A DNA stretch of 47,148 nt. Source: Propionibacteriaceae bacterium. GTDB taxonomy: Bacteria > Actinomycetota > Actinomycetes > Propionibacteriales > Propionibacteriaceae. The stretch covers positions 1-47,148 of the forward strand of contig JAOPXN010000016.1 in the NCBI GenBank assembly GCA_025965155.1, given 5' to 3'. This document shows, piece after piece, positions 3,008 through 46,884 of the stretch. A program made the translations under genes and the position numbers. Position 1 is the first letter of the stretch, and every line of letters begins with the position of its first letter. The notes under the pieces are model-generated. The model did no database searches. It was given only the letters and a program-made list of their open reading frames with translations, and was not told where the DNA came from.

Positions 3008-3033
3008 GATGGTGCCTTCGGTGAGACGTGGGA

Positions 3034-5969: not shown

Positions 5970-6300
5970 GTACACGGTGCTGACCGTGGTTGCGGTGGTC
6001 GCCGTTGTCGCCGTGGAGCTGCTCTGGCTGCGCACCGGCATCTTTGCCACCGCTCAGTACTGGCTCTCCATGTTGATCGTGTTCGCCTTCCAGGTCCTGG
6101 TTGACGGTTGGCTGACGAAGCTGTCCGACCCCATCGTGATCTACAACCCGGACCAGATGCTCGGCATCCGTGTCCCCTGGGATATCCCGATTGAGGACTA
6201 TGGCTTCGGCTTCGCGATGGTGACCCTCACCCTGCTGGTCTGGCGCAAGTTGCTGGACCGAGGCGCCGCCCGTAGGACCGCACACCACGAGGAGCTGTGA
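5962..6300 (+). CDS. crtYd: Lycopene beta-cyclase subunit CrtYd
   Basis: A 112-residue membrane protein, second half of the heterodimeric lycopene cyclase. Hydrophobic helices at about residues 5-25, 32-50 and 85-104 and the motif DPIVIYNPDQMLGIRVPWDIPIEDYGF are characteristic; the PxED acidic pair is probably catalytic. It starts inside the end of crtYc and its stop overlaps the crtT start (TGATG), a tightly coupled operon. Product: cyclised carotene, the substrate of CrtU further along. Confidence 0.92.
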   Translation: MPEYTVLTVVAVVAVVAVELLWLRTGIFATAQYWLSMLIVFAFQVLVDGWLTKLSDPIVIYNPDQMLGIRVPWDIPIEDYGFGFAMVTLTLLVWRKLLDRGAARRTAHHEEL

Positions 6301-7067
6301 TGACCACCGATACGACCCTTCGAACCGAGGACGTCCCGCAGGCCTTCGACCGGGCCGCGGGTCGCTACGACCTGATGGTCGCGCTGAACCCGGGATACCA
6401 CCGGCACCTGCGTTCTGCGGCGGCCGCGCTGGTGGAGCGGCTCGCCCCGGGTCGCTCGACCACCCGGGTGTTGGACCTCGGTTGTGGCTCGGGTGCCTCC
6501 AGCCTCGCTTTGCTGGAGCAGCTGGCCACGGAGCCGGGCCTGAAGGTGGTCGGTGTGGACGCGTCCGAGGGCATGCTCGAGCAGGCCCGCCGCAAGCCGT
6601 GGCCGGGCACGATCTCGTTCCACCACGGGCTCGCGGAGGATCTGGCGGGCTGCCGGGACGACTGGGAGCTTGGCGGTCCGGTCGACGGCGTCTTCGCCGC
6701 CTACCTGTTCCGCAACGTCACTGAACGCGACAAGGTGCTGGCCTCGGTACATGACCTGCTGAACGACGGCGGGGTGTTGGTGGCTCAGGAGTACTCAGTC
6801 GCGGGTTCGCCGCGGGCGCAGGTGGTCTGGTCGCTGGTCTGCTGGAGTGTCGTCATCCCGCTGAGCTTCTTCACCCGAGGGGAGACCCGGCTGTACCGGT
6901 ACCTGTGGCGCAGCGTCCGGGCGTTTGACTCGGTGCAGACCTTCACCGACCGGCTGCAGGCGGCGGGGTTCATCGACGTCGAGGTGCGGACGGTGCCCGG
7001 ATGGCAGCGCGGCATCTTGCATACGTTCCGTGCCCGTAAACCCGGCGAAACGACGATGCTGCCGTGA
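6300..7067 (+). CDS. crtT: SAM-dependent methyltransferase of the carotenoid cluster (CrtT-like)
   Basis: A 255-residue class I methyltransferase of the UbiE/MenG type. The SAM-binding motif I is VLDLGCGSGASS (about residues 59-70), followed by GVDASEGMLEQAR and the post-motif AYLFRNVTERD. The start is the ATG at 6300 overlapping the crtYd stop; a GTG at 6297 is an alternative. A methyltransferase between the cyclase and crtU genes matches the crtY-crtT-crtU order of Streptomyces. In that cluster, as I recall, crtT is not needed for isorenieratene formation, so the substrate is open; demethylmenaquinone-type quinones or a carotenoid end group are both possible. Confidence 0.8.
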   Translation: MTTDTTLRTEDVPQAFDRAAGRYDLMVALNPGYHRHLRSAAAALVERLAPGRSTTRVLDLGCGSGASSLALLEQLATEPGLKVVGVDASEGMLEQARRKPWPGTISFHHGLAEDLAGCRDDWELGGPVDGVFAAYLFRNVTERDKVLASVHDLLNDGGVLVAQEYSVAGSPRAQVVWSLVCWSVVIPLSFFTRGETRLYRYLWRSVRAFDSVQTFTDRLQAAGFIDVEVRTVPGWQRGILHTFRARKPGETTMLP

Positions 7068-7086
7068 CGGGACCGACGGGACCGCG

Positions 7087-10645: not shown

Positions 10646-12126
10646 CAGCGGCCAATCGGCAGGTAGCGCCCGACCCGATCGGCGGCGAGCTTGCCGGAGA
10701 TCAGCACCATGGGTACCCCCACGCCCGGGACAGTCCCGGACCCGGCGAACACCAGACCCGGCACCGACCTTTCGACGTTCGGCGGTCGGAACGGTCCGGT
10801 CTGGGCGAAGGTGTGCGCCAGTGCAAACGGGGTGCCGGCCTTCATCCCCTGGCGTTCCCAGTCCAGCGGAGTCACGATCTGCTCGGTGACCACGTCGTCG
10901 GGGTAGCCCTGCGTCGCCAGGAACTGGTGCAGCCGGTCCCGCATCGGCGCTGTCTCGGTCCGCCAGTCGACCTGGCCGGACAGGTTCGGGACGGGTTCGA
11001 GGACGAAAAGGGTCGAGCATCCTTGGGGTGCTGCGTCCGCTTGGTCCAGCGACGGGATGGTCACCAGCCGCGACGGGTCTGGCATCAGCCGCCCTTGCTT
11101 CAGCAGCGCGTCGAAGGCGGTGCCCCACTCCGCTCCGAAGTGGATGTTGTGGTGTGCCACTTCGGGCCCGGGCAGGCCGCGGACTCCGACGTGCCAGACA
11201 ACGGCCGAGGGGGAGTAGTCGCCGTCCGCCGCACCTCGCGGCGGCTTCAGGTCCGGCAGCAGCTTGTCGTAGGCGACCGGCAGGTCAAGGGTGCAGACGA
11301 CTGCATCGGCCTGCAGCTGCTCGCCGTCGACCAGCCGTACCCCGGCCACCCCGGCGGTGTCGGACCGGCGCACGATCGCCTCGACCTCGGCGCCGTACCG
11401 GAACTGAGCGCCCGCCTTCTCGCACGCCTGCGCCAGTGCGACCGGCATCGCGTTCATGCCGCCGTCGGGAAACCAGACACCTTCAATGCTGTCCATGTAC
11501 GTGATCACGGCGTACAGCGCGAGCGCAGAGTCCGGCGCCAGTCCGGCGTACATCGCCTGGAAGCTGAACAGCCGATGCAGCCGCGGATCGCGGAAGCGGC
11601 GGCGGACCGCGTTGCCGAGCTTGCCGAAGGCGCCCAGCCGGAGCAGTTCGGCGGCGGCCCGGGGAGAGGAGAGCAGCCCCAGCGGGGAGTCGAAGTTGCG
11701 GTCGATGAAGTTCGGCATCTCGACCACGTACAGCTTGCGCAGCCAGTCCACGAAGCCGTCGAAGGCGGCGGCGTCCACGCTGCCACAGGTGTTGGCGATC
11801 TCATCCCGCATCGCCTCGTGGCCGTAGCGGACGTGGATCGTGCTGCCGTCGGCGAAAGTGGCGCGGTAGGCCGGGTCCAGCCGGCGCATCGGCAGCGCCT
11901 CCGCCAGCTCCGCGCCGACGGCCCGTAACGCATCGGCGACCAGGTCCCGCATGGTCAGGACGGTCGGACCGGTGTCAAAGGTGAAACCGTCTTTGACCAG
12001 CTGGCCGGATCGACCGCCCGGAATGTTCTCTCGCTCGACCACGGTGACGTCGTAGCCGCGCCCGGTCAGGTGGCAGGCGGCTGCCAGGCCAGCCAGTCCC
12101 GCCCCGACCACGATGACGCGGCTCAC
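10645..12126 (-). CDS. crtI: Phytoene desaturase
   Basis: A 493-residue FAD enzyme that desaturates phytoene stepwise to lycopene. N-terminal FAD motif VIVVGAGLAGLAAACHL, then ERENIPGGRSG; the region FDTGPTVLTM is the conserved stretch after it; the C-terminal bacterial-type desaturase signature NVERSVPGLVFAGSGTVPGVGVPMVLISGKLAAD is present. It overlaps the crtE stop by 4 bases (ATGA type) and the crtB start by 1 base. Length is typical of CrtI. Confidence 0.94.
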   Translation of the reverse strand: MSRVIVVGAGLAGLAAACHLTGRGYDVTVVERENIPGGRSGQLVKDGFTFDTGPTVLTMRDLVADALRAVGAELAEALPMRRLDPAYRATFADGSTIHVRYGHEAMRDEIANTCGSVDAAAFDGFVDWLRKLYVVEMPNFIDRNFDSPLGLLSSPRAAAELLRLGAFGKLGNAVRRRFRDPRLHRLFSFQAMYAGLAPDSALALYAVITYMDSIEGVWFPDGGMNAMPVALAQACEKAGAQFRYGAEVEAIVRRSDTAGVAGVRLVDGEQLQADAVVCTLDLPVAYDKLLPDLKPPRGAADGDYSPSAVVWHVGVRGLPGPEVAHHNIHFGAEWGTAFDALLKQGRLMPDPSRLVTIPSLDQADAAPQGCSTLFVLEPVPNLSGQVDWRTETAPMRDRLHQFLATQGYPDDVVTEQIVTPLDWERQGMKAGTPFALAHTFAQTGPFRPPNVERSVPGLVFAGSGTVPGVGVPMVLISGKLAADRVGRYLPIGR

Positions 12127-13301
12127 CGGTCCCGCCAGGCGATCTGGTGCGCCATCTGGGTCAGCTGCGTCACGCCTGCCGGGTCGAGGGAGGAGTCCGC
12201 GACGGCATCGAGGGCGGCGGCGACATGGCCGGAGATGAGCTCCTCGACGGCGGCGACCACACCTTCACTCTGCAGCGCATCCTGGAGCACGGCGACGTCG
12301 GAGCGCGCCAGCTGGGGTGACCCGACCCGCCGCAGAGCGTCCCGGGCAGCGGGGCTGCGCAGCCGCTGGTGCGCCAGCGACATGATAACGGTCGGCTTGC
12401 CGGAGATCAGGTCGTCACCTGCCGGCTTCCCGGTCCGTGCCGGGTCGCCCCAGACGCCGAGCAGGTCGTCTCGCAGCGCGAAAGCCTCGCCGACCTCGCG
12501 TCCGTACCGGGTCAGACAGTCGGTGACGACGCTGGATCCGCCGGCCGCCGCGGCGCCCAGCTGAAGCGGCCGTTCGACCGTGTAGGCGCCGGACTTCATT
12601 CGCGCCACCTGGCGGGCGTGCTGGAGGTCGCGGCGCCCGGCCGCGCCGCCGGTCAGGTCACGACGCTGGCCGCAGACGAGCTCAACCACCAGCAGCCGCC
12701 AGAGCCGGCGCATCGGGGCTGGCAGGTCCGCTACTAGATGGTCCGCCTCGGCGTGCGCCAGATCGCCGAGCAGGATGGCGATACTCTCGCCGAACCGCTG
12801 AGCCGAGCCCAGCGCATCCCGCTCCAGGTGCAGGCGGGCCGTCAGGGTATGAACGGTCGGCTGACCGCGCCGGGAGTCCGACTCGTCCATCACGTCGTCG
12901 TGGATCAGCGCGAACAGGTGCAGCAGTTCGAGCGCCGCACCGACGCGGATGACCTCCGCGCGCCCGACCCCAAGGCTGTGGCCCCCGGCGCTCAACCAGC
13001 CGAGATAGGACATCACCGGTCGGATCCGCTTGCCGCCGGTGGCGATCAGCTGGTCCAGCAGCTGGGGCAGGTCCGCGTCGGCCAGGATGTCGACCGCCCC
13101 CGCGTCGTCCAGCTCGGTCGTCCAGAGCATGGTCAGTTCCGCGACAGCGGACGACAGCAGCCCGTCCACCTGGGTCAGAAAATCGGCTATCCCGGGTTGA
13201 GCCGCCTGGCCCGGAAGAGCGACCACCCAGCCATGCGGCTGCCCAGGGGCCCAGACCGATTCGGTGACCTCAGAACTGTCGGACGTACGAGCTGTGCTCA
13301 C
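12123..13301 (-). CDS. crtE: Geranylgeranyl diphosphate synthase
   Basis: A 392-residue all-trans polyprenyl diphosphate synthase, first gene of the leftward carotenoid operon. The first aspartate-rich motif is HDDVMDESDSRRG (DDxxD) preceded by GGKRIRPV; the second is DDLLGVWGD (DDxxG rather than DDxxD, common in actinobacterial enzymes). The 70-residue N-terminal lead before the catalytic core is longer than usual, so a later start is possible, but the first ATG leaves a sensible 39-base gap to idi. The product feeds CrtB; chain length C20 is inferred from the operon. Confidence 0.88.
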   Translation of the reverse strand: MSTARTSDSSEVTESVWAPGQPHGWVVALPGQAAQPGIADFLTQVDGLLSSAVAELTMLWTTELDDAGAVDILADADLPQLLDQLIATGGKRIRPVMSYLGWLSAGGHSLGVGRAEVIRVGAALELLHLFALIHDDVMDESDSRRGQPTVHTLTARLHLERDALGSAQRFGESIAILLGDLAHAEADHLVADLPAPMRRLWRLLVVELVCGQRRDLTGGAAGRRDLQHARQVARMKSGAYTVERPLQLGAAAAGGSSVVTDCLTRYGREVGEAFALRDDLLGVWGDPARTGKPAGDDLISGKPTVIMSLAHQRLRSPAARDALRRVGSPQLARSDVAVLQDALQSEGVVAAVEELISGHVAAALDAVADSSLDPAGVTQLTQMAHQIAWRDR

Positions 13302-13340
13302 GGACTACCCCATCTCCGATCGTCGTTCGGCCCTGGTCCG

Positions 13341-13883
13341 TCACCGAGCAGCCGGCCCCGTCAGCTGGCGGACCTGGCAAACTGCCCAAGGGCTGAAGGC
13401 GAACGGTGTGGCTGCCATCGCCGTCACCACATCGCGCCAGTCCACCCACGCCCAGTCCATGACCTCGTCCTCATTCGGCGCCGGGACCACGTTTGGATGC
13501 ACCGCGCTGCCCACAAATACCGGACAGATCTCGTTCTCCCGAATTCCACTGGCGTCCAGGGCGGTGTACGCAAAGTCCGGCAGGGCACAGCTGAGATCCT
13601 CGACAGCAAGCCCGAGCTCGGTGTCGAGGCGTCGGCGGACCGCATCGGCCAGGGGTTCGTCTGGTCGCGGATGACCACAGCAGCTGTTGGTCCAGACGCC
13701 GGGCCAGGTGCGCTTTGACAACGCTCGGCGGGTCAGCAGCAGCTGGCCGGCCGCATTGAACAGGTAGAGCGAGAAGGCCAGGTGCAGCGGTGTCGTGGCG
13801 GTGTGCACCGCTGACTTGAGCTGCTGGCCGATCGGTTCGCCGTGTGCGTTGACCAGCACTACCGGGTCGTCGACGACAGTCAT
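13341..13883 (-). CDS. idi: Isopentenyl-diphosphate delta-isomerase, type I
   Basis: A 180-residue Nudix-fold enzyme that interconverts IPP and DMAPP, supplying the primer for CrtE. Key residues: cysteine in TNSCCGHPRP (C68/C69), the metal and catalytic glutamates in ENEICPVF (E116, E118), and WVDWRDV near the end. The ATG at 13883 opens the conserved lead MTVVDDPVVLVNAHGEPIG; longer reading upstream has no recognisable homology. Same strand and direction as crtE, 39 bases ahead of it, so probably co-transcribed. Confidence 0.93.
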   Translation of the reverse strand: MTVVDDPVVLVNAHGEPIGQQLKSAVHTATTPLHLAFSLYLFNAAGQLLLTRRALSKRTWPGVWTNSCCGHPRPDEPLADAVRRRLDTELGLAVEDLSCALPDFAYTALDASGIRENEICPVFVGSAVHPNVVPAPNEDEVMDWAWVDWRDVVTAMAATPFAFSPWAVCQVRQLTGPAAR

Positions 13884-14026
13884 CGGCGTCCGACGACGGT
13901 GGCACTGGTCCGCATCATGGTCGAAACGATACCCATCGGGGAGGAAACGGTTCGCAGGTTGAGGACGATTGCCGGTGCTGCTTCGGCGCGGCAGCGCTAG
14001 CCAGTTGTCAGCCATGGCGAGTAGAA

Positions 14027-14042
14027 TCGAACGCATGTTCGA
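14027..14042. promoter_or_regulatory. Perfect LexA/SOS box
   Basis: TCGAACGCATGTTCGA is a perfect 16-base palindrome matching the mycobacterial/actinobacterial LexA operator TCGAAC-N4-GTTCGA in all twelve fixed positions. It ends 12 bases before the ATG of the small rightward gene at 14055, overlapping where a promoter should sit, and about 144 bases from the divergent idi start. Repression of the small gene until DNA damage is inferred; the box itself is directly visible. Confidence 0.85.
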
Positions 14043-15171: not shown

Positions 15172-15260
15172 CCGTAGAACTGCGACGACCAGCCCGGCTG
15201 CTCGGCGGCGGAGCTGTGTGGCCTACCGCACACCTGCCCGGCGTCCACTCCAACTACACG

Positions 15261-15266
15261 TAAACT
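15261..15266 (+). promoter_or_regulatory. -10 element for a probable leaderless dxs transcript
   Basis: TAAACT lies 7 bases before the dxs ATG at 15274, which places transcription start on or next to the A of the ATG. No ribosome-binding sequence precedes the ATG. Leaderless mRNAs are common in actinobacteria. No clear -35 is seen. Confidence 0.45.
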
Positions 15267-15273
15267 CGCACCC

Positions 15274-17196
15274 ATGCCCCCCGTGCCGCGCCGACTGCTC
15301 GAGTCCATCCGCAGCCCTCAGGACCTGCGATCGCTCTCGACCGATGAGCTGAACCAGCTCAGCGCAGAGATCCGGTCGTTCCTGATCCATCACGTGAGCC
15401 AGACCGGCGGGCACCTGGGTCCGAACCTGGGCGTTGTGGAGCTGACCGTGGCGCTGCACCGGGTCTTCGACTCACCTCGCGACCCGATCATCTTCGACAC
15501 CGGGCACCAGAGCTACGTCCACAAGATGCTGACCGGCCGTCAGCAGGGCTTCCCGGGACTGCGTCAGCGCGGTGGGCTGTCGGGCTACCCGAGCCGGGCC
15601 GAGTCCGAGCACGACTGGGTGGAGAACTCTCATGCCTCGACGTCGCTGTCGTACGCCGACGGGATGGCGAAGGCATTGCGGCAGCAGGGCCGCTCGGGCA
15701 CGGTGGTCGCCTTTATCGGCGACGGCGCGCTGACCGGCGGGATGGCGTGGGAGGCGCTGAACAACATCGCCGCCGAGGAGGACCTGCCGCTGGTGATCGT
15801 GGTCAACGACAACGGCCGTTCCTACACGCCCACCGTGGGCGGCCTGGCCAAGCACCTGTCCGGGCTGCGCACCAACCCGCGGTACGAGCAGATCCTGGAT
15901 CTGGTGAAGCGCAACGTCAGCCGGGCGCCGCTGCTGGGCAGCGCTGCGTACGACATCCTGCACGGAATCAAGATCGGGCTCAAGGACGTACTTGCTCCGC
16001 AGGGGATGTTCTCCGACCTTGGCCTGAAGTATCTCGGCCCGGTCGACGGGCATGACGTTGTCGCCGTGGAGCGTGCACTGCATCAGGCGAAGCAGTACGG
16101 CGGGCCGGTGCTGGTGCACTGCCTGACCCGCAAGGGCAACGGGTTCAAGGCCGCCGAGAACCATGAGGAGGACCGGTTCCACGCGGTCGGCAAGATCGAC
16201 GAGCTGACCGGTGAGGCGCTCGCGGGCACCGTGGCCAAGACCTGGACCGACGTTTTCTCCGAGGAGCTGGTCGAGCTCGGCAGCACCGATCCGCGGATCG
16301 TGGCGATCACGGCGGCCATGATGTATCCCACCGGGCTGGCCCGGTTCGCCAACGCCTTCCCCGACCGGTTCTTCGACGTCGGCATCGCCGAGCAGCACGC
16401 GGTCACCTCGGCCGCAGGAATGGCCATGGGCGGACTACACCCCGTCGTCGCCGTCTACGCCACATTCTTGAACCGGGCGTTCGACCAGCTGTTGATGGAC
16501 GTCGCGCTGCACCGCTGCGGCGTCACCTTCGTCCTGGACCGCGCCGGTGTCACCGGCACCGACGGCGCGAGCCACAACGGCATGTGGGACATGTCCATCC
16601 TCCAGCTCGTGCCCGGCCTGCATCTGAGCGCGCCGCGCGATGGCACCCGGCTCCGCCAGGCGCTGGCTGCTGCGGTCGCCATCGACGACGCCCCGAGTGT
16701 CGTCAGGTACTCCAAGGAAACAGTGCCCGACGACATCGAGGCGATCGACACTCTTGACGGCGTCGACGTGCTGCTCCGGACCGAGAACCCCCGGGTCCTG
16801 GTCGTCGCGTACGGCCAGATGGTCGGTACCGGGCTAGCCGTCGGGCAGCGGCTGTCCGACCAGGGCATCGGCGTCACCGTGGTCGACCCCGTCTGGGCGC
16901 TGCCGCTCAACCCGGCCCTGGTGAAGCTGAGCGCCGGGCATGATCTGGTGATCAGCATCGAGGACAGCGGAGTTGTCGGTGGCTGCGGCGCCCGGCTGGC
17001 GCAGGAGATGCGCCTCGCTGACGTGCTGACGCCGCTTCGGGAGTTCGGCATTCCGCAGGAGTTCCTGCCGCACGGCGGCCGCGGTGAGCTGCTGGAGGAG
17101 CTTGGTCTCACGCCGCAGGCCATCGCGCGGTATGCGGTCGAGGCCATCGTGCGGGACGACTCGACGCTGACCGAAGGCGCGCTGAAGCAGGGCTGA
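15274..17196 (+). CDS. dxs: 1-deoxy-D-xylulose-5-phosphate synthase
   Basis: A 640-residue thiamine-diphosphate enzyme, first step of the MEP pathway: pyruvate plus glyceraldehyde-3-phosphate to DXP. N-terminal signature [24 protein letters not shown] and [18 protein letters not shown]; ThDP/Mg motif [18 protein letters not shown] ... VVNDN; the transketolase pyrimidine-binding domain has [17 protein letters not shown]; the C-terminal domain follows. Length is standard. With idi and crtE nearby it supplies precursors for carotenoids as well as for quinones and lipid carriers. Confidence 0.96.
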
Positions 17197-30914: not shown

Positions 30915-32043
30915 TTAGGCGGGATCCAGCGCCGCGGAGCGGAAGTCGGGCAGGTCCGGCAGCTCAACGGGAAGCTGGTCGGCGGGCACGACCCGCGGTT
31001 GGCCGTCTTCGTCGTAGACGATGGGGAAGGGCTCACCCCAGTAGCGCTGCCGGGAGAACAGCCAGTCCCGCACCTTGTAGGTCACCGTCGGCTCACTGGC
31101 GCCGTGCCCGTTCAGCCAGCCGGTGATCGCCTGCCGAGCCGCCGCGATGTCGAGCCCGTCGAGGAAGCCGGAGTTGATCGCCGGCCCGTCTCCGGTGTAC
31201 GCCCGCCCCTCGAAGCCGTCCGGCGGCTATACCGTCCGGACGATGGCACGTCGAACGCCTCCGCGAACTCCCAGTCCCGCTCCTCCTGGCCGGGCACCCC
31301 CATGATCGCCCCTGTGCCGTAGCCCATCAGCACGTAATCGGCGACGAACACGGGGATCGAGGCGCCGGTGGGGTTGGTGGCTACCGCGCCGACGGCCACA
31401 CCCGTCTTTACCCGGCTCTCCTGGCGCTCCCGGTCGGTCTTCGATGCGGCGGCGTGCCGGTAGCCGGCAACCGCCTCACTCGGGCTGCCGGCCCCTCCGC
31501 GCCAACTATGCGGGACGCCGTCCGGCCAGTTGGGCGGCACCAGCGCGTCGAGCAGTGGGTGCTCCGGCGCGACCACCAAAAACGTTGCGCCAAACCGGTG
31601 TCGGGTCGGGTTGTGAAGACCTCGATGGGGCCCGCGGATGTCGAGAACCGCATTGTGGCGCCCTCGCTGCGCCCGATCCAGTTGCGTTGCATTGCCTTGA
31701 TCGACTCCGGCCACGCAAAGGCGTCGAGGTCGTCCAGGAGCCGGTCGACGTACGCCGTGATCCGCAGCATCCACTGGCGCATCGTGCGGCGGAAGACGGG
31801 GAAGTTGCCGATGTCGCTGCGCCAGTCGGCGGTGACGTCCTCATTGGCAAGCCCCGGGCACAAGTTGCCCGGGCCGTCGGGCAAATATGCGAGCCGACGG
31901 CCATCGACGACCGCCTGCTGCTCCGCCGCCGACAATTCAGCCCATGCGCGGCCGTAGCGCGAGATGCCGTCCGTATTCCCGGGCGACCTCGCTCTTGGAA
32001 CGTCCTTCTTCACCGCGGTGATCAAGAGCCGGGCCATCGGCAT
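30915..32043 (-). pseudogene. leuS: Leucyl-tRNA synthetase fragment, multiply broken
   Basis: A minus-strand remnant spanning the editing (CP1) region and part of the catalytic core. One frame gives [34 protein letters not shown] and FTTRPDTG; a second gives [19 protein letters not shown] and [20 protein letters not shown]; a third gives [20 protein letters not shown] and VRDWLFSRQRYWGEPFPIVYDEDGQPR, ending after a LPDLPDF stretch at a stop at 30915. So there are at least two frameshifts, an in-frame TAG (VRTV-stop-PPDGF), and a small deletion where NWCPG..VLANE is expected. The HIGH-containing start and the KMSKS end are missing. It cannot be the cell's working LeuS. Confidence 0.85.
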
Positions 32044-32326
32044 GGCGCACCTCCATCGTCTGAGGTGCCAACTACGTCTCGGGACATCTGCCAAGTCTGT
32101 CGTGCACCCGGTCACGTTCGGTGACCCAGCGAATCGGATCGAGAGCTGAGTGCTGATGTGAGTGCATTGAGACCTATGCATCGCTTATGAATGCACCGTG
32201 TGCGGGCGCCGAGGCTACGCGCACGTCGAAAGGCACAACAAGATCCTCGCGTCGTCGCGCGCACCCAAGTTTGGATCTGGAGCCGCAGTGCAAGGCCGGG
32301 GGCGCTCTCCTGCGCTGAGCGACAAT

Positions 32327-33945: not shown

Positions 33946-36900
33946 TCAAACCCTGGCGGCAGGGGAAACTAGCACGCGGATGGACGTGGGGGCCATCGCG
34001 ACCCCGTGCAGCGCGCCGTCGGTGACCAGGTAGGCGACGCTTGGGTCAACCACGTCGCTCCAGAACCGGCCCTCTTCCTCGCCGCGTAGCTGCAGGTCCA
34101 CCGCGTGTGGAGTTGGATCGATGTTGACGATGGTTATGACGTGATGAAGGTCGCCGCGGTAGCGGTAGGAGATCACACCGGGGTCGCCGGTTTGGGGTTG
34201 GTATTGCTGCTGCCCGTACACGAGAGCATCTTTGAGGTGTTGACGCGCGGTCACGAGGTCGCGGATGTGCGCTGCTTCCGCGAGCATTGAGGCGGCGTGG
34301 CCGCGGGCATCGTCGGGCCACTGCCGGTTCAGTGCCAGTCCGTGTCCGGCTGCGAACACCTGATGCAGACCGTTCAGGTCGCGACCGTTGGAGAACATCG
34401 TGACGTGTGGGTACGCGGCCCGCACAGGTGAGCCGAGCAAGGGCAGGTCGGCGCTGGGCGAGGTGTCCTTTAATTCGTGGGAGAAGTCGGCGGCGAGGCC
34501 GCCGTCCCAGTGCGCCGCGATGGGTCCGGCGGTTGTTTCCCCGATTACAACGGCATGCGGTTTGATGGCCCGCACGGCCACGCGGACCCGGTCCACAAGC
34601 GCGAGCATTGCGGCCGAGTACTCCAGCGACGTTGTGGGCCGCCGTCCAGGCTCACCCCGGAGACCGCAGTGAAAGTTCATCCGCCAGGCCACGGAGTCGA
34701 GGAACACTCCGTCGAAGCCGTAGTGACCGACGAGCCGCTCGGCCGTGGCCACGACGTGCTCGACCCAGGGCCCGAATGAGGGGAGCATCGCCGGGCTTCG
34801 GAAGAACGGGACAAAGGCGGTGGGTGGCGTACCGTCGATGGTGGCCGTCCACGATCCGCCGGTGCGCTGTGCGATCATCGACTTGTCGTAGATGATGAAC
34901 GGTTCCAGATAGGCCAGCACCCACCCGCCGGCGTCGTGGATAGCCCGGATGCCGTCGATCAGGGCCGGTGCACCGCCCAGCGCGCCGCGAGGGATGTAGT
35001 CACCCTTGTTCCAGTAGGCGGGGTCGACCGACTCCGGCGCCGCCTCCCAGTAGTCCCACAGATAGACGACGCTGGTTCCGAATCGGCGAGCCTCCTCAAG
35101 CAGGCGCGGCAAATCGCGGAACGAGCCCAACCGGCCGGGCCGGATTGCGAACACGTCAAGCTGCTCCGCCGACTGGGCGGCTGCCGTGACATACGCGCCC
35201 GGCACGGCAAAGTACGGCGGTGTGATCTGCACGGGGGTTCCGCGACCGTTCCGCCCATCCTGCCAACCCTGCTGGCTTTCCTGCCACGTTGCCCACATGC
35301 CGCCGTCGTGTCCAACCCAAAGCACCTCAAGCTCGCTGTCGGCCTTGACCGCGGTAGCCAGCCGCGCCCCGGCGGGTGCCAACCCGCTGGGCGTAACCGG
35401 CACTGGCATGGCTCGCCCGGACCTCCCGTCGGTCCACCCGCCAGCCCCGGACACCCAACTGGTCCAGATCGCGCCGTCGGCGTGGACCCAAAACACATTG
35501 AGCTGATCTGCTGTCTGCCGAGCGGCAACCAGATGTGAGGCGGCGGGGACAGAGCCGGACGGTGTGATCGGCTGGGGTAGGCCGCGCCCGTCCAGACCGT
35601 CGGTCCACAGCTGCAGTCCGGATGACCACGTGACCCAGATCGCGCCGTCATGGATCCAGAACACGTCCAGCTGGTCCGCGGTCTGCGCCTCCGCGGCGAG
35701 GAAGCCACCCGGGGTAGCGAATCCCGCCGGTGTGACAGGCGCCGGCGGGGGCCGTCCCTCGGCTCCGTCGGTCCAGGCCGTGTGCCGTCCCGCCCACGTC
35801 ACCCACACTGCCCCGCTGTGCCCAATCCAGAACACATCGAGTTGGTCCTCGGCCTGCCGCGCAGCGGCTAATGGAGCTCCCGGCAGGCCATACCCCTCGG
35901 GAGTGACCCGCGCTGGACGTCCGCGACCGTCCACCCCGTCCCGCCAGCCTCCACCGGCCGTCTCCCAACTGACCCACACTGCGCCGTCCTCACCAATCCA
36001 GAACACGTCGAGCTGATCCGGAGCCTGTCGAGCCGCGACGACATGTGCACCCGGTCGCGCGTAGCCGGGCGGAGTGATCCGTTCGGGCCCATGGCCGTCG
36101 AGCCCGTCTCGCCACCTGCCCTGCCCGGTCTCCCACGTGACCCAGACAGCACCGTCGTCGCCAACCCAGAACACGTCAAGCTGCCCGTCGTCTTGCGTCG
36201 CGGCTGCGATCGGCGCCAGCGGGTCAGCTGCACCCCCGCGCGACACCGCGACCGGATACAGGTCTCTTCCGCCCTCGTACTGGTGCCACGGGACCCGGCC
36301 CGGCTGGCGTGTCACCCAAATTGCGCGATCGACGATTTCAGTGCCCGGCTGGTCGAGGTAGATCGAACCGGCTCCGCCGCCGGCGAACGTATAGATGGCA
36401 CCCTCCTCCCGCAACCATGCGGGGGATTCGGCAACCGGGGGCCGCGCCGGGTGCAGCGAGGCATAGACGTCTGCGGCGGCGTGCCAGTCGCCGTCGTGGA
36501 CCCCGATCGCCAGGCCGGGTGCCGTGACCGACGCTCCCGGAGAGAGGCCACACGTCCAGAACGCCGCCACCTCGTCGCCAGTCATCCGAAACTGCAGCGG
36601 CGACACCCCCGAGTCCAGGTCGCCATCCACGTCGGCGAAGAAAACTCCACCGTTCCCGCCGGCGTCGTAGACGTCGGCGAACTCCATCGCGTTGAACGAG
36701 GCGGGCAGCCCCAGCGACAGGTCCAGCGGCATACCGATCGGGATGCCGCTGCTGGCCGGGCAGGTCACGCCCATCTCGGCCGGAACCGTCCGCAGGGCGC
36801 GGTCCCGCCCGCCCTTGGGAGTGATGCCGTGGACTCGTGGCAGCACGGTGCGCAGTAACGAGATGTGCTCCGCGCCGGTGTTAGTGAACGTCACGCGGAT

Positions 36901-37209
36901 GATCAGCGCGGCCGGATGCGACGACACGGCGATCGACACAGCGAGATGCTCGGCGGGATTCAAGGTCGACTCTGCCGTCGTGTGGGCCATAATTCGTAAC
37001 GTCGACCCGTCAGCGGCTCGAGCGATGCCATCAACGCGCAGGCCAGCGTCGCTGCCGTATGCTGTGCGGTTGTTCACCGCGAACAGGAAGAGCATCGAGG
37101 GGTCTGGCAGCATGTTGTATCCGGTCCGCTCGTCCCGTATGGCGACCAGCGACACACCGGGCCCGTCGGCGAATTCCAGCGACGTCCGCCCGTTGCTCAC
37201 CGCTGGCAT
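33946..37209 (-). CDS. Predicted glycoside hydrolase (DUF6259-like) with an inserted seven-bladed beta-propeller
   Basis: A 1087-residue protein with no signal peptide. The ATG at 37209 has GGGGAGG 5 bases upstream; longer extensions lack this. Domains: residues 1-270, beta-sandwich of the galactose-mutarotase-like kind found in front of GH barrels; 271-285, LREEGAIYTFAGGGAGSIYL, the usual lead to the barrel; about 283-690, an insertion of seven propeller blades; 691 onward, the barrel resumes with RPGRLGSFRDLPRLLEEA, VVYLWDYWEAAP, AYWNKGDYIPRGALGG, LAYLEPFIIYD, GFDGVFLDS (D838) and VVIGETTAG (E891), the best catalytic candidates; about 1000-1087, C-terminal beta domain. It probably acts on a complex glycan, the propeller binding sugar. 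Substrate is unknown. It is divergent from the HTH/hydrolase pair. Confidence 0.75.
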   Translation of the reverse strand: MPAVSNGRTSLEFADGPGVSLVAIRDERTGYNMLPDPSMLFLFAVNNRTAYGSDAGLRVDGIARAADGSTLRIMAHTTAESTLNPAEHLAVSIAVSSHPAALIIRVTFTNTGAEHISLLRTVLPRVHGITPKGGRDRALRTVPAEMGVTCPASSGIPIGMPLDLSLGLPASFNAMEFADVYDAGGNGGVFFADVDGDLDSGVSPLQFRMTGDEVAAFWTCGLSPGASVTAPGLAIGVHDGDWHAAADVYASLHPARPPVAESPAWLREEGAIYTFAGGGAGSIYLDQPGTEIVDRAIWVTRQPGRVPWHQYEGGRDLYPVAVSRGGAADPLAPIAAATQDDGQLDVFWVGDDGAVWVTWETGQGRWRDGLDGHGPERITPPGYARPGAHVVAARQAPDQLDVFWIGEDGAVWVSWETAGGGWRDGVDGRGRPARVTPEGYGLPGAPLAAARQAEDQLDVFWIGHSGAVWVTWAGRHTAWTDGAEGRPPPAPVTPAGFATPGGFLAAEAQTADQLDVFWIHDGAIWVTWSSGLQLWTDGLDGRGLPQPITPSGSVPAASHLVAARQTADQLNVFWVHADGAIWTSWVSGAGGWTDGRSGRAMPVPVTPSGLAPAGARLATAVKADSELEVLWVGHDGGMWATWQESQQGWQDGRNGRGTPVQITPPYFAVPGAYVTAAAQSAEQLDVFAIRPGRLGSFRDLPRLLEEARRFGTSVVYLWDYWEAAPESVDPAYWNKGDYIPRGALGGAPALIDGIRAIHDAGGWVLAYLEPFIIYDKSMIAQRTGGSWTATIDGTPPTAFVPFFRSPAMLPSFGPWVEHVVATAERLVGHYGFDGVFLDSVAWRMNFHCGLRGEPGRRPTTSLEYSAAMLALVDRVRVAVRAIKPHAVVIGETTAGPIAAHWDGGLAADFSHELKDTSPSADLPLLGSPVRAAYPHVTMFSNGRDLNGLHQVFAAGHGLALNRQWPDDARGHAASMLAEAAHIRDLVTARQHLKDALVYGQQQYQPQTGDPGVISYRYRGDLHHVITIVNIDPTPHAVDLQLRGEEEGRFWSDVVDPSVAYLVTDGALHGVAMAPTSIRVLVSPAARV
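35140..36363 (-). repeat. Coding repeats for a seven-bladed PLL/DUF346-like propeller
   Basis: Within the large hydrolase, the strand motif QLDVFW-(I/V)G-x-DGA-(V/I)-W-x-(S/T)-W recurs at residues 344, 400, 457, 514, 570, 627 and 684, spacing 56-57 residues (168-171 bases). Each unit continues W-x-DG-x-GR-x2-P-x2-(V/I)TP-x-G and ends A-x-(R/A)Q. The first blade starts with RAIWVT at 295 and lacks the QLDVFW strand, while the last copy (EQLDVFAI, 682-689) is only that strand, so the ends can close the ring velcro-fashion. Similar repeats form sugar-binding propellers in Photorhabdus-type lectins. Confidence 0.8.
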
Positions 37210-37557
37210 CGCTGCCTCCCCAGTCGAAATGGCTATCCTCGCACCAAACCACATAGGACGGTAAGCACACATGCCGATCCGCCGCTGACGCGTCGGCCAA
37301 CGAATCATCAGTCGGGTACGGGATCCGTCGAACCAATGCGCGAGACCGCGTCGCAGGGGAGTCTCGGCATCCAATCCCGTGGTTCCCTGTGGCGCCGATG
37401 CTGCCGGCACACCGCCACTCCCGCTGTGTTGTCTGAACTAGGTGGGCCCCTTCAACTGACGAACAACTTGGAGGGTCATATGCGTCGGTAAATTCGCTAT
37501 CCAACTCATTAGAAACACCATTAAAGTTGTATTGAAGTTGTTCACGGTTGGATTGAG
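37210..37557. other. Divergent intergenic region, hydrolase versus HTH gene
   Basis: 348 bases. The left half carries the ribosome site of the large hydrolase gene and no other gene. The right end (37490-37560) is markedly AT-rich for this genome and holds the direct repeats listed separately. Promoters for both directions probably lie here; no convincing -35/-10 pair could be fixed. Confidence 0.5.
37524..37551. promoter_or_regulatory. Phased direct repeats before the HTH gene
   Basis: AAGTTGT at 37524 and again at 37535, then GGTTGG at 37546: the GTTG core recurs every 10-11 bases, one helical turn, in an AT-rich tract ending 6 bases before the HTH start. Head-to-tail sites at one-turn spacing suit MerR/BldC-type winged-helix proteins of the kind encoded downstream. 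Autoregulation is inferred. Confidence 0.4.
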
Positions 37558-38006
37558 ATGATCGCTGTGGATGCACAAGAACTGCTCTCAGCCGAACAGG
37601 TGCCGATCAACTGGGGCTGCACGTGCGTACCGTCCGCAACTACGTACGCAGCGGCCGTCTCAAAGCTGTGCGCATCGGCAAGCAGTACCGCATCACCCGC
37701 GCCGACCTGGACCAGCTCACCGGACGTGCCCAGCCAGGCACCAATCCGAAGCCGGCCTGCGGCCGCTACCAGGTGGAGGGATCCAGCATCGTGCAGATTG
37801 ACGGGATTGACCCGGCAGGGGCCGACCGTGTCAGCACGATGCTGATAGCTGCTACCGCCGGCCCACGAAACAGCGGGAAACCCCTACGGGTCGACACCGT
37901 CTACGACGTGACGAGCGCCCGGATGAAGATCATCGTGCTCGGCAATCCCGCCGACACCGCTGAGCTACTACGACTCCTGGACACGATCACTGGGGCCGAC
38001 TCATGA
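37558..38006 (+). pseudogene. Excisionase/MerR-type helix-turn-helix regulator, one-base deletion
   Basis: The frame from 37558 reads MIAVDAQELLSAEQV, the start of an HTH_17 domain, then is lost at 37602/37603. The other frame continues LHVRTVRNYVRSGRLKAVRI and GKQYRITRADLDQL. GTGCCGATCAACTGGGG would read VADQLGLHVRT if one G were restored (GTGGCC), so a single deletion explains the break. The C-terminal half (residues about 55-145) is an alpha/beta domain with LRVDTVYDVTSARMKIIVLG. A shortened protein could start at GTG 37623. Its stop overlaps the alpha/beta hydrolase start by 4 bases. Confidence 0.7.
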
Positions 38007-40643: not shown

Positions 40644-42839
40644 CTAAGTCGTCACGTTGACAGGAGCTGCCAACAATACACCTCCCAGTTTGGACTCAAC
40701 GCTGACGGTGCGTGTGGCGTCCGGCGCGATGGCCGAGGTCACTTTGAGCGTCCAGGCGCCCGTGGCGGGGTCGACGGGAGCGGTGCCGATGACCGCTCCA
40801 GTCAGCGTGGGCCCGTTGTGGATGGTGACGGTGTTGGCTGGGCTGAGCAACGTTGCTGTGCCCGTGATGATCCACTGCTTACCGCCTGTGCGGTACCGGG
40901 CAGTGACTGTCAGCGGGTCGGGTTTGGGTGCCACAGACACTGTGTCGGTGGCCGATCCACCAGGCCCGGTGACGGTGAGCGTGAAGGTCAGCGGTTTGGC
41001 AGAGGCAGGGAATGTGAAGGACGGGGTGGCCGTGTCAGCACCCGTGATGGTTACGGCGGGGTCGCCCGCCGCCTGGGTCCATTGGTAGCTGGCTGCTCCC
41101 GTGCTGGCGCTCCCGCTGAGCTTGACGAGCGTCCCGCGGACGACGGTCTGGTCAGGACCTGCGTCAGCGGTCGGGGCCGTGACATCGGCAACGGTCAACG
41201 TCACGGTGGCACTGGAGGGGCCGCCCGGGCCGGTCACGGTGAGCTTGAAGCTCAGCGCGCCCGGTGTGGACGGAGCAGTGAAGGACGCCTTCGCCGTGTC
41301 GGCTCCACTCAAGGTCACGTTCGCCCCCGTGAGCTGAGTCCAAGCGTAGCTGGCCACGTCACCCGTGGAGGCGGACCCGTCGAGCGTGATCTTCTGGCCC
41401 TGCTGAATCGTCGAGTCGGCACCCGCGAACGCCTGCACGGAGATCGGCGTCATAGCCGCACCGCTCCCCCGCACACCGTCCGTATCAGTTCCGCCCAGTG
41501 ACGAGCTCACTGTGACGGTGGCCGGAGCCGCCGTGACGTTGTTGAAGACCGTGGTGGCTGCCGTCAGCGGTCCGTACCCGACAGCGGTGAGGGTCGGCGG
41601 CGTCGCACTGTCACTCGATGTGGCCTTAATTGTAAGTGTCTGCGCTGTCGTGTCATACACAGCCGACGTGATGTCGACCGCGTCCACCACGGGAGTCGTC
41701 TTCACGGTGGCAGGCTTGTCGCCCGAGTTGGTGACCGTGACGGTTTTCGGTGGCGATCCGGTGAAGTTGACCCGTCCGTAGTAGTTCTTACCGTCGCCGA
41801 CCATGGTCGTCCGGTCCAACCCGGCACCGCTCACGTCTATTCCCTGCTCAGGTCCGGAAGTGGCGTAGACGTCGAGTGTTCCGCCGCCGGTGTCGCTGCG
41901 TGAGTACGTGGCGGCCGTGGGATCGACCCCCGCGTTTGTGGCGAGCTTGCCCAGCAGGCTGAACTGGTCGGTGCTCACCGAGTTGATGCCCGGGCCGCCG
42001 ATGTCCGGACCGTCGACCTTCAAATAGTTCTGCGGCGCCCCGGCCTCGTCGACGAACGGGCTGCCGGTGACGGCATGGTTGACCGTCGGGTCGCCGATGT
42101 AGCCGGCTGGCGCTCCAGCATTCCACTTCAGGAATGGACCGATGCGGCTCCCGAGGGCGGTCGTGAAGATCCCAGGGGTCAGCCCCTTGTCTTGAGTGAC
42201 GAAAACGAGCCCGGCGTCGTCTGCCTTCACCACGTCCTTGCCATAGGGATGCGTCACGGTGTAAGTGGCGTTCGGCACCGCGTTCGTGATTTTGATGCGG
42301 AAACGGCCGAAGGCGATTTGGTCACCGGCGGTGACGGATCCGTTACTGAACGCGCCCTCCAAGTTGTCGTCGAGCGTCGCTTTGCCACCGTTCCCTGTCG
42401 TGATCACCGCTGAAGCGCGCTGGTAAAAGAACTCCTGCGGGAAGTTGTCTGGGAAGGACGTGGGTTTCGCCGGGTCGTAAGTGGAATCGGCGGCGAGCGT
42501 GCACAGTGCATCAGCGCCGTCCAGGCAGCCCTCGAGTCGAACCCCAGAAGCATCGCCGTACGTCACAGGGAAGCCGTTCTCGCCGCTGATCGGGCCGACG
42601 GACACCGGATGGTTCACCGCGCCAGGAGCCAATGTCGCACTCTGGGCAGCGCCCAGCATTAGAGCGTTAGTCGCGGCAGTCAGTAGCAGGGCTGTGGTCG
42701 TCACCTGGGCGAAGAGCCGCATGTTGCGTCGCCGCCGCACTTTCGGTTCGATGCTGCGACTGGGGGAAGGGTCACGTGGACGTTGTCGCGTTGGCCCGTC
42801 CTCTGCAGGGACGCTGATCCGCCCGTTCAGGTTGCTCAT
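40644..42839 (-). CDS. Secreted surface protein with two PKD/Ig-like domains
   Basis: 731 residues. A long basic N-terminal lead with RRRR precedes a signal peptide core (MRLFAQVTTTALLLTAATNA), with likely cleavage after GAAQSA (about residue 68). The N-terminal domain (about 70-300: GENGFPVTYGDASGVRLEGC, LDGADALC, FPDNFPQEFFYQRA) is of a type seen in actinobacterial exported proteins. Two PKD-like repeats follow (about 465-550 and 552-640; ADAGPDQTVVRGTLVKLSGS, ASYQWTQ), then a C-terminal Ig-like domain. No LPXTG or membrane anchor, so it is released or loosely bound. The start at 42839 has GGGAG upstream; ATG 42722 would give a conventional signal peptide. A role in adhesion or glycan binding is inferred. 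Confidence 0.75.
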   Translation of the reverse strand: MSNLNGRISVPAEDGPTRQRPRDPSPSRSIEPKVRRRRNMRLFAQVTTTALLLTAATNALMLGAAQSATLAPGAVNHPVSVGPISGENGFPVTYGDASGVRLEGCLDGADALCTLAADSTYDPAKPTSFPDNFPQEFFYQRASAVITTGNGGKATLDDNLEGAFSNGSVTAGDQIAFGRFRIKITNAVPNATYTVTHPYGKDVVKADDAGLVFVTQDKGLTPGIFTTALGSRIGPFLKWNAGAPAGYIGDPTVNHAVTGSPFVDEAGAPQNYLKVDGPDIGGPGINSVSTDQFSLLGKLATNAGVDPTAATYSRSDTGGGTLDVYATSGPEQGIDVSGAGLDRTTMVGDGKNYYGRVNFTGSPPKTVTVTNSGDKPATVKTTPVVDAVDITSAVYDTTAQTLTIKATSSDSATPPTLTAVGYGPLTAATTVFNNVTAAPATVTVSSSLGGTDTDGVRGSGAAMTPISVQAFAGADSTIQQGQKITLDGSASTGDVASYAWTQLTGANVTLSGADTAKASFTAPSTPGALSFKLTVTGPGGPSSATVTLTVADVTAPTADAGPDQTVVRGTLVKLSGSASTGAASYQWTQAAGDPAVTITGADTATPSFTFPASAKPLTFTLTVTGPGGSATDTVSVAPKPDPLTVTARYRTGGKQWIITGTATLLSPANTVTIHNGPTLTGAVIGTAPVDPATGAWTLKVTSAIAPDATRTVSVESKLGGVLLAAPVNVTT

Positions 42840-44508: not shown

Positions 44509-45762
44509 TCAGGCGGCTGCGGTGAGCTTCTCCTCGGTGTGCCAGGCGCGGGTCTCGTCGTAGAGCGTGTGGTGTCGCAGGCACCCGTGGAGGATGCCGA
44601 CCAGCCGATTGGCGAGGGCACGCAAGGCTTGGTAGTGCGTGGAGCCGCGGGCACGTTGCCGGTCGTAGAACGCCCGGGCGCCTGGCGAGGCGCGGAGGGC
44701 GCTATACGCCTGCAGGAAGAGCGCGTCGCCGAGACGCCGGTTCCGGGCGTAGCGTGCAAGCACCACCCTCTTGGTGCCGGAGGCTCTCGTGATCGCAGAC
44801 ATGCCGGAGTAGTTCTTCCGCGCTTTGGCATCGGCATAGCGATTGGGGTCGTCGCCGAACTCGGCCAGCACCCGGGCGCCGAGGATCATCCCGAGGCCGG
44901 GTTGGCTTCGGTAGATCTCAGCGTCCGGGTGCCGGCCAAAACCCTGCTCCACCTGCCTAGCCAGCACCTCGGTCTGGGCCACCATCGCCGTCAGGACCGC
45001 GACCAGTGCCGACGCGGACGCGGCGTAGGCCGGGATTACCCCGGGCCCGGCCGACAGCTGCTCGGACTGTAAGCCGGCCCGGATCTTGGCTGCGGCGGCG
45101 GGCAGGTTGCGCTGCCGGCCGGCCCTGCGCAGGACGGTTTCGATCCGGGCCTGGGAAAGCCGTCGGCCCTGGTCCGGCGACGGGGCGATGGCCAGCACCG
45201 CCAACGCGTCCCGGTCGTCGAGGTCGTTGCCGAACGCGGCCAGCGCTGCCGGGTAGTACTCCCGCAGCAGCGACCGCAACACGTTCACCTGCCGTACCCG
45301 CGACCAGATCATCGTCTGATGAGCCCGGGCAGCGACCTTGACATGCTCAGCGATGTCGGAATCCCCAGCGACGGGTCGATGATGAGGCCGATCCAGACGG
45401 ACGATCTCGGCCAGCAGATGCGCATCCGCGGTGTCGGACTTAGCCCCCTAGGTTGAGTGCCGCTCCCGGTAGCGGGCCACCTGCATCGGGTTGACCGCAT
45501 ACACGGTGTAGCCGGCGGCGAGCAGGGCCTGCACCCACGGCCCGCGCTCGGTTTTGATCCCGACCAGCACCTGGTCTGGCTCGCCGGCCGAGTCCAGATG
45601 CTCAGCAACCAACCCATGCAGAGCCGTGATCCCGGCCATCCCATCGGCCAGCCGCCTCCGGACCAACACCGTCCCGGAGTCGTCCTCGATCTCAACGTCG
45701 TGATGGGCCTCAGCCCAGTCGTCGCCGATAAACAACATCCCACCCTCCTCGCGTTGACCCAT
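44509..45762 (-). pseudogene. IS110-family transposase interrupted by an in-frame TAG
   Basis: Read through one stop, this is a complete 417-residue IS110-type transposase: FIGDDWAEAHHDVEIEDDSG (DEDD motif start), VGIKTERGPWVQALLAAGYT, MQVARYRERHST, stop at 45448-45450, then GAKSDTADAHLLAEIVRLDR, PGLGMILGARVLAEFGDDPN, RKNYSGMSAITRASGTKR with the serine region, and LANRLVGILHGCLRHHTLYD. The stop stands where relatives read a serine (TCG to TAG), and both parts are in the same frame. Without readthrough the product lacks most catalytic residues. Confidence 0.85.
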
Positions 45763-45804: not shown

Positions 45805-46884
45805 CTATGTCGTGTCAACCCCTGCCAGGGCTTTTGTCGGTGTCGTGTCGAGCCGGCTCAGGCGGCGGTAGAGGTGCCGGGCGAGGTAGCGCTTGATGCA
45901 GCGGCGGATCTCCTTATCGGTCTTGCCGGCGCCTCGGCGACGTTCCATGTAGGCCACGGTCTCAGGATGGTGTCGCATACGGTTGGTGGCGACGATGTGC
46001 AACGCCCGGTTGAGCTGGCGGTCACCGAGCCGGTTCAGCCGGTATCGGTCCGTCCGTCCTGAGGACACGGGCACCGGCGCGGTGCCTGACAGCATGCCGA
46101 ATGCGGCTTCGCTGTTGATCCGGCCTGCGTGGGACCACGACAGCAGGATCTGCGCCAGGCTGAGAGCACCCAGACCAGGCTCGTCAGCGACCATGCCGGG
46201 CGCGAGCTCTTCGACGATCGCGGAGATCTCCGCCTCTAGCTCGTCGATCTCTGCGGTGAGATCCAGGATCCGTTGACCGAGCCGGGCCAAGCTGTGATGA
46301 AGCACCCGGGTCGGGCGGTCGGCGTCTTCGGGGCAGTGCAGCTGCGCGCACGCTCGCGGGCGACGGCTGCGTGTCAATCCGCGGAGCTGTTCGCGCAACT
46401 CGGTTGGTGCGGTCACGATCAGCGAGGTCAGCACCGCCCGTGCCGACCGGGCACACCCAACGGCGTGGTCGCGGTCGACCATCAACACCCGCAACGCCTC
46501 ACGGTCGCCGTCGGCGCGCATCTCGGCCGGGTTCGGGTGGGCCAGGAACTCCTTCGCCGCCCGGACCGCGTCGATCGGGTCACTCTTACCCGCCCGACGC
46601 TTCCCGACATGGCGGCTACGGTCGATCTCGACCACCCGCTGGCCCTGGCTGGCCAAGAACCGGGATAGCCCGAGCCCGTAGTGGCGGGTTCCTTCGACCG
46701 CCCATACCACCGGGGTATCGCCAGCTGCAGCGTGGGCCCACGCTGCCATCTCCGCATACCCCGCCGGGGTGGTCTGCACCCGACGCTCAGCCAACGGCCG
46801 GCCGCGGACGTCGCACAATGCGGCGGTGTGGGTGTCGACGTGCGTATCGACCCCGACCACTAACTGCACGTCATCAACGATCAC
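45805..46884 (-). CDS. IS110-family transposase (intact)
   Basis: A 359-residue DEDD/serine recombinase of an IS110-family insertion sequence. N-terminal RuvC-like domain: VVGVDTHVDTHTAAL, VWAVEGTRHYGLGLSRFL and RAGKSDPIDAVRAAKEFL carry the acidic residues. A coiled-coil-like linker (AEIDELEAEISAIVEEL) precedes the C-terminal Tnp domain: LLSWSHAGRINSEAAFGMLS, GTAPVPVSSG (catalytic serine candidate), YRLNRLGDRQLNRALHIVA. GTG start at 46884 with a purine-rich site upstream. Such enzymes act with a bridge RNA made from the element's own end. It lies 42 bases from the neighbouring amber-containing transposase. Confidence 0.9.
   Translation of the reverse strand: MIVDDVQLVVGVDTHVDTHTAALCDVRGRPLAERRVQTTPAGYAEMAAWAHAAAGDTPVVWAVEGTRHYGLGLSRFLASQGQRVVEIDRSRHVGKRRAGKSDPIDAVRAAKEFLAHPNPAEMRADGDREALRVLMVDRDHAVGCARSARAVLTSLIVTAPTELREQLRGLTRSRRPRACAQLHCPEDADRPTRVLHHSLARLGQRILDLTAEIDELEAEISAIVEELAPGMVADEPGLGALSLAQILLSWSHAGRINSEAAFGMLSGTAPVPVSSGRTDRYRLNRLGDRQLNRALHIVATNRMRHHPETVAYMERRRGAGKTDKEIRRCIKRYLARHLYRRLSRLDTTPTKALAGVDTT

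Follow-up and report, generated by a model that had tools for sequence, protein, structure and literature searches.

The window analysed here (the whole stretch of 47,148 nucleotides at positions 1 to 47,148 of contig JAOPXN010000016.1, from the Propionibacteriaceae assembly GCA_025965155.1) carries an open frame whose product joins a glycosidase-like (beta/alpha)8 barrel of the DUF6259 kind (PF19773) to a complete seven-bladed beta-propeller of the BP39L/PLL lectin type, the latter being nested in the loop between strand beta1 and helix alpha1 of the former. The order of the parts, the place of insertion, the predicted fold of the ring, the recurrence of an identically placed ring in a second protein (L024, encoded by a metagenome-assembled genome of Litorilinea aerophila, Chloroflexota) and the conservation of two acidic barrel residues, D905 and E958, are observations (residues are counted from the GTG at 37410; subtracting 67 gives the numbering from an alternative ATG at 37209). 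We consider it fairly probable that the window protein is a carbohydrate-active enzyme, a retaining glycosidase whose ring would be a multivalent module, built in next to the active site to bind glycans and gripping a branched or decorated glycan that the barrel would then cleave.

The ring and its place in the barrel

The motif [QE]L[DEN]V[FL] recurs seven times along the ring (residues 410, 466, 523, 580, 636, 693 and 750). A preliminary description, drawn up from the sequence alone, had reported seven blades of 56-57 residues: the seven units are there and six of them have this length, but the first is irregular and counts 53-54 residues. The limits it had proposed for the ring (residues 283-690) become approximately 297-689 on its own numbering. 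A profile made from 14 blades (those of the window protein and L024, hence self-matching by construction) returned 7 domains here, with i-Evalues of 2e-18 to 3e-24. Among sequences of the Protein Data Bank (PDB) the best match was BP39L (PDB 6gxr), both for the whole protein (E 4.7e-28) and for residues 360-756 alone (E 1.4e-30), followed by the chains of PLL, PLL3, PLL4, PHL, PLL2 and PLL5. The NCBIfam family beta_propeller_lectin (NF052348, cut-off 200 bits) was matched at E 3.5e-55 and 187.5 bits, and at 217.5 bits (above the cut-off) in a six-frame search that took in frame neighbours; the corresponding scores of L024 were 250.6 and, in the six-frame search, 242.8 bits. Against the BP39L equivalog (NF052349) the ring reached 199 bits, short of the cut-off of 400, which points to a relative of BP39L and not to its orthologue. 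No accepted Pfam family fell on the ring (FG-GAP_3: 21.9 bits, cut-off 26.9; PapC_C: 13.1 bits, cut-off 27).

Structure prediction led to the same lectins. An AlphaFold model of the ring, computed from a two-row alignment (the window segment and L024), had a predicted template modelling score (pTM) of 0.75, and 34 of 40 ten-residue blocks across the ring had a mean predicted local distance difference test value (pLDDT) of 60-86, the flanks being uncertain. Foldseek placed BP39L first for this model (358 columns, gaps included, against a chain of 360 residues; root-mean-square deviation (rmsd) 2.3 Å; template modelling score (TM) 0.78 by target and 0.63 by query), with PLL-family chains next in its listing (TM 0.52-0.75 by target). 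The full-length model again had BP39L as first match (TM 0.81 by target, rmsd 4.6 Å). Judging by the scores of these superpositions rather than by coordinates, we take the repeats to form a closed seven-bladed ring; the lectin-like ring of the preliminary description is upheld by sequence and by predicted fold, and a failure of the repeats to close, which would have told against it, was not encountered. The solved members of the BP39L/PLL group are lectin chains of 369-381 residues, whereas the window ring lies inside an enzyme, carries some 6-7 extra residues in one loop of most blades, and appears to start at another blade strand. Its sequence would open on the outer half of one blade and close on the inner half, and both termini would thus leave from one blade, as a loop insertion needs.

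The insertion site was read from an alignment of the window protein with L024 and the ring-free relative L030, to which a second ring-free relative, L061, was then added. The peptides on which the preliminary description relied are all present in the frame (IYTFAGGGAGSIYL at residue 339, RPGRLGSFRDLPRLLEEA at 757 and VVYLWDYWEAAP at 781). The segment that precedes the ring, AIYTFAGGGAGSIYLDQPG, is identical to L024 at 16 of 26 positions (62%) and aligns to strand beta1 of the ring-free relatives. In the window protein it is followed by the ring and then by GRLGSFRDLPRLLEEA (RLGSFRDLP after the ring); in L030, ALYGVGGIGGGGAYLAYGPG is followed by approximately 16 residues and then by SSFDELPTLLRKA, with no ring. 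The two ring-free proteins, whose barrels are 35% and 34% identical to that of the window protein, share the pattern A[LI]..ALYGVGGIGGGGAYLAYGPG...[SA]SFDELP, and comparison with them bears out an insertion at a loop rather than at a terminus. The barrel had been described as breaking off after its lead-in peptide; a conserved strand does stand before the ring, but the conserved loop continues past IYL to LDxPG. DUF6259 is matched by the window protein at 33.5 bits (cut-off 28.7; 28.9 bits for residues 757-1154 alone), over profile positions 66-211 only (residues 769-916, E 3.2e-8), beginning shortly after the ring, the pattern to be expected of a domain that the ring divides; L030 gives a single match across profile positions 7-260. 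Taken together, the alignments show the ring interrupting the loop that, on the family pattern, would be beta1-alpha1. In such barrels this loop lies on the catalytic side. As the ring begins a few residues past LDxPG and runs right up to the following helix, leaving short linkers at both ends, it would be held stiffly on that side of the barrel.

Distribution and history of the ring

L024 is a single frame of 1105 residues, identical to the window protein at 395 of 1109 aligned columns (36%), and possesses a ring of seven blades (positions 2999-4066 of L024) at the same place, with the same entry and exit points. In the window genome, the thiolase gene is most similar to Nonomuraea and Streptomyces records (77% and 75%, against 42% for the next), and for the DXP synthase gene the first nine of twelve listed rows are Streptomyces, Nonomuraea and Tsukamurella; its host is accordingly a probable actinobacterium, and the hosts of the two proteins appear to belong to different phyla. 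At E 1e-3 there was no match to DUF6259 in L024's genome, which puts the pair at the edge of the family.

Beyond this pair the architecture was not encountered in the capped genome samples covered. A scan of genome contigs with the barrel as a single protein, which reaches close relatives only, gave 16 pattern matches, from which L024 emerged as the one relative. With the two-protein barrel profile, the phylum of L024 gave a match in 1 of 400 genomes (L024's own), and the family to which the window genome belongs gave one in 1 of 198 (again its own). The whole protein matched 2 of 96 relatives (its own genome and one with a propeller fragment) and 4 of 394 genomes of the class (itself, one over the barrel and two over the propeller). 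Blades were absent from all 55 other loci that matched DUF6259 or a three-row barrel profile (blade profile at E 0.01; tblastn with either ring at E 0.001); these loci represent at most 51 distinct genes (at least 4 pairs are the same gene), some of them lie below the family cut-off, and three short ones (L029, L053 and L066; 1821-2066 bases) may miss the insertion site. Longer frames of 823-1336 residues (L017, L021 and L056-L059, the L021 locus covering 939 of the 1242 residues of its frame) had no significant blade match (E above 2 only). Viral contigs supplied no further relatives for the alignment, phage records had no match, and among plasmid records the window query had its best place confined to the ring in each of 5 records; the L024 ring as query likewise returned 5 records. 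On the strength of the 55 blade-free loci we rejected the ring as a general feature of the DUF6259 family, and, as far as the searches reached, the prospect that it might turn out to be a common part of that family did not materialise. The patchy distribution suggests horizontal transfer.

An assembly or annotation artefact that fused two genes is exceedingly improbable. The assembly is a draft (134 contigs, 2.28% contamination) and the barrel match is lacking in the other 197 of the 198 family genomes, but the frame is uninterrupted, its G+C content is uneven over the codon positions (0.71/0.54/0.80), and an independent genome, that of L024, encodes the same architecture and already contradicts such a fusion.

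The rarity claimed for this arrangement holds for the family (0 of 55 other loci) but not for its principle, since nested sugar-binding domains and a nested propeller have been described elsewhere. One source reports a carbohydrate-binding module (CBM) of family 58 inserted in the B domain of SusG, of glycoside hydrolase (GH) family 13, and tandem CBM4 modules between beta3 and alpha3 in GH10 Xyn10C-like enzymes (Xyn10C/Pm25) (PMC7848910). As in the window protein, a sugar-binding domain is there nested in a catalytic barrel; the sites (B domain or beta3-alpha3, against beta1-alpha1) and the modules (CBM families 58 and 4, against a seven-bladed propeller) differ. In prolyl oligopeptidase and oligopeptidase B, according to a second source, a seven-bladed propeller is nested by two linker peptides and restricts access (PMC8533160); the catalytic domain is an alpha/beta-hydrolase peptidase, and the propeller is not presented there as a lectin. 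The literature searched, which covered few subscription papers, yielded neither a paper on DUF6259 nor the pairing of its barrel with a lectin propeller, and the accessible part of the CASP15 survey contained none either. Nested sugar-binding inserts and nested propellers are thus known, and what would be new is a lectin ring in this barrel.

The ring is the least conserved part of the pair (109 of 347 positions, 31%), as compared with the barrel (170 of 383, 44%) and the N-terminal domain (101 of 264, 38%). Mean blade identity is 47% and 45% within the two rings and 30% between them. A blade-by-blade positional correspondence between the rings was sought by permutation and proved absent: the in-register score (492) ranked 2403 among 5040 permutations with a mean of 489.6, and was exceeded by cyclic shifts of 2, 4 and 6 blades (526, 525 and 500). 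Furthermore, a third protein, a 944-residue frame on a Paraburkholderia plasmid, scores about as high with either ring as the two rings do with one another. With the window ring as query, the best single domain of L024 (72.5 bits) exceeded that of the Paraburkholderia frame (58.3 bits); with the L024 ring as query, the Paraburkholderia frame (77.5 bits) exceeded the window (61.5 bits). Whole-sequence scores placed the Paraburkholderia frame higher with both queries (215.9 versus 152.7 bits for the window query, 159.7 versus 111.5 bits for the L024 query), values that extra copies may inflate. Each ring has apparently been homogenised, or acquired, separately. The observations on blade identity, positional correspondence and the third protein would suit a history in which lectin propellers entered this loop, or were replaced in it, on two separate occasions; such a history is compatible with any function of the ring. 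Nevertheless, both rings finish with QxDVFA followed by xxGR[LI]xSFxDLP, that is, at the same point of the blade and of the loop. These identical entry and exit points, simply explained by one ancestral insertion followed by blade re-amplification, speak for a single old ring, and separate insertions we regard as somewhat unlikely.

Putative catalytic residues, possible sugar sites and the probable role of the ring

The putative catalytic residues were identified in an alignment of 13 barrels, made up of the window protein and 12 chosen profile matches (other profile matches were left out, among them L067, which we took to resemble an ordinary amylase); 12 of the 13 match DUF6259 at E 0.01. 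Besides D905 and E958, W882 and two glycines are invariant (D149, E202, W126, G3 and G72 in barrel numbering). Compared with PDB chains, the family profile weakly matched mostly amylase-type and CITase/dextranase-type chains, Cwp19 and one alpha-galactosidase (E 1.7e-4 to 0.0065). A number of these matches, and the best one among them, fall mostly at the C-terminal end, where profile positions 316-425 weakly match amylase-type C-terminal parts (PDB 1ea9). Glyco_hydro_66 was matched by 3 of the 13 barrels (best E 7e-4). An Asp/Glu pair of this sort is established in the retaining glycosidases of GH13 and GH66, and the pair found here would suit a retaining enzyme. A fucosidase connection was dropped: the match to 6tvk (E 1e-4 with a three-row profile) faded to E 0.25 with thirteen rows, and accordingly we claim no link to the fucose-binding lectin family.

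As for the ring, the work on PHL describes fucose stacking on Trp199 and galactose on Trp202, a W-x-x-W pair (PMC5584973). At the same spacing, 7/7 blades of the window ring carry the first Trp and 6/7 the second (R in blade 1), and a third Trp recurs in 7/7; the equivalence with the PHL sites is drawn from this spacing. Sugar binding by the ring is plausible on this pattern, and the sugars bound may differ between the two rings.

A hint of possible substrates comes from the locus of the ring-free DUF6259 relative L072, near which we observed four genes of the URO-D superfamily (6286-7413, 11658-12857, 12960-14036 and 15189-16292), together with two solute-binding proteins and an ATP-binding cassette (ABC) permease. 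The adjacency of a DUF6259 relative to solute-binding and ABC-permease genes we count in favour of a carbohydrate-active enzyme. The relatives of URO-D include methyltransferases, a kinship that makes O-methylated sugars a possible substrate. O-methylated sugars are among the compounds with which PLL and PHL interact, as stated in PMC6943638.

Several points weigh against a glycan-binding module working with a retaining glycosidase. Going by spacing, the window blades have no clear equivalent of Trp214, the second fucose-pocket residue of PHL: Trp214 lies 15 residues further along, their third Trp 10. The blades of L024 keep the first Trp in 4/7 cases, their second position is Phe in 7/7 and their third is W in 5/7 and F in 2/7; given this difference from the window pattern, its ligands may differ or its sites may have been lost. 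The full-length AlphaFold model (two rows, mean pLDDT 45.9) is poor outside the ring, and its barrel is unusable, such that the orientation of the ring relative to the barrel is not given. We know of no activity or binding reported for any of the members seen. A carbohydrate-metabolism gene was recognised in none of the 20 scanned frames of the window. Moreover, the window protein lacks a hydrophobic N-terminus with either start codon (best 17-residue mean hydropathy 0.88 over residues 1-120, judged by hydropathy only), which is awkward for an enzyme supposed to grip large glycans outside the cell, and the surface-tethered enzyme of the preliminary description finds no support. The lack of a signal fits a gating ring or a cytosolic enzyme; the signal-like N-terminus of L024 (best 17-residue mean 2.59 over residues 1-60) fits a secreted one.

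These points bear on what else the ring could do. The main alternative is that it covers the active site as a lid or filters substrates by size, in the manner of prolyl oligopeptidase, whose nested propeller excludes large substrates; sugar binding would then be secondary or lost. The short linkers, the position in a beta-to-alpha loop, the nested and access-restricting propeller of the prolyl oligopeptidase family and the appearance of a prolyl endopeptidase (2bkl) in the Foldseek listing for the ring (rank 39, E 1.4e-9) are all in keeping with such a lid, and the missing signal would suit an enzyme that stays in the cytosol and works on small sugars taken up by the cell. The close relatives of the ring are, however, lectins, site-like aromatics recur in all seven blades, and the geometry above the active site is not predicted; we consider a lid of this kind unlikely. 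Alternatively, the ring could be a self-folding structural or protein-interaction scaffold, tolerated in its loop and devoid of a carbohydrate role. Its low conservation relative to the rest of the protein, and the loss of part of the Trp pattern in L024, would agree with this; yet a whole seven-bladed ring with aromatics at most stacking positions has been kept in two distantly related proteins, and a scaffold of this kind seems to us rather improbable. A more specific proposal places the ring over the mouth of the barrel, where a glycan would be bound by it, or have to get past it, before cleavage, and where blade re-amplification in each lineage would alter what is accepted. A single polypeptide would then unite a gate of the prolyl oligopeptidase type with a multivalent lectin; such a propeller-gated, lectin-selected glycosidase is a speculative version to which we give a low probability. 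A nested multivalent module that binds the glycan to be cleaved by the barrel remains the reading we prefer.

The gene, its surroundings and its wider meaning

The limits of the parts are collected in Table 1. Two starts are available to the frame: GTG 37410, preceded by GGGAG 5 bases upstream, and ATG 37209 (1087 residues), likewise preceded at 5 bases by GGGGAGG. A start at the ATG is plausible, even likely, and the choice between the two is not settled. The N-terminal domain we presume to be a beta-sandwich, as in such enzymes, the model being of low confidence here.

Table 1. Parts of the ring-bearing gene within the window (residues from GTG 37410).
Feature	Position	Strand	Residues	Remarks
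Whole open frame	33946..37410	minus		1154 aa from GTG 37410
N-terminal domain	36400..37209	minus	68-337	38% identity to Litorilinea relative L024 (101/264 aligned); pLDDT <50 in full-length model
Barrel strand beta1 and beginning of its loop	36322..36399	minus	338-363	AIYTFAGGGAGSIYLDQPG; putative strand assignment
Inserted seven-bladed beta-propeller, BP39L/PLL lectin type	35143..36321	minus	364-756	
Blade unit 1	36163..36321	minus		irregular, opens the ring
Blade unit 2	35995..36162	minus		
Blade unit 3	35824..35994	minus		
Blade unit 4	35653..35823	minus		
Blade unit 5	35485..35652	minus		
Blade unit 6	35314..35484	minus		
Blade unit 7	35143..35313	minus		closes with QLDVFAI right before the barrel resumes
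Rest of DUF6259 barrel, from helix alpha1	34231..35142	minus	757-1060	C-terminal limit approximate
Codon of D905, putative nucleophile	34696..34698	minus	905	GVFLDS; invariant in 13/13 barrels
Codon of E958, putative acid/base	34537..34539	minus	958	VIGETT; invariant in 13/13 barrels
C-terminal segment	33949..34230	minus	1061-1154	boundary approximate

In the surroundings of the gene, two matches to IS110-family transposases (44509-45312 and 45805-46884, minus strand, approximately 7 kb away) and an HTH_17 gene (37623-38006) may mark a mobile neighbourhood. Elsewhere in the window, the minus strand encodes a NifU/Rieske protein adjoining a nickel-dependent hydrogenase large subunit (215-1204 and 1208-3085), a possible gene fragment whose match to the profile of the leucyl-tRNA synthetase editing domain covers only positions 1-33 of 185 (31408-32181), and a 731-residue, possibly extracellular protein with PKD domains (K319L-like; 40644-42839).

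The window protein offers a natural case of a catalytic barrel that incorporates a complete multivalent lectin ring, an arrangement retained by two distantly related genomes and on that account probably useful, for which the ring-free relatives L030 and L061 are natural controls of the effect that a nested glycan-binding domain has on a glycosidase. An enzyme of this make would, moreover, give a functional handle on DUF6259, and the separate blade make-up of each ring suggests that ligand preference may be remade in place.

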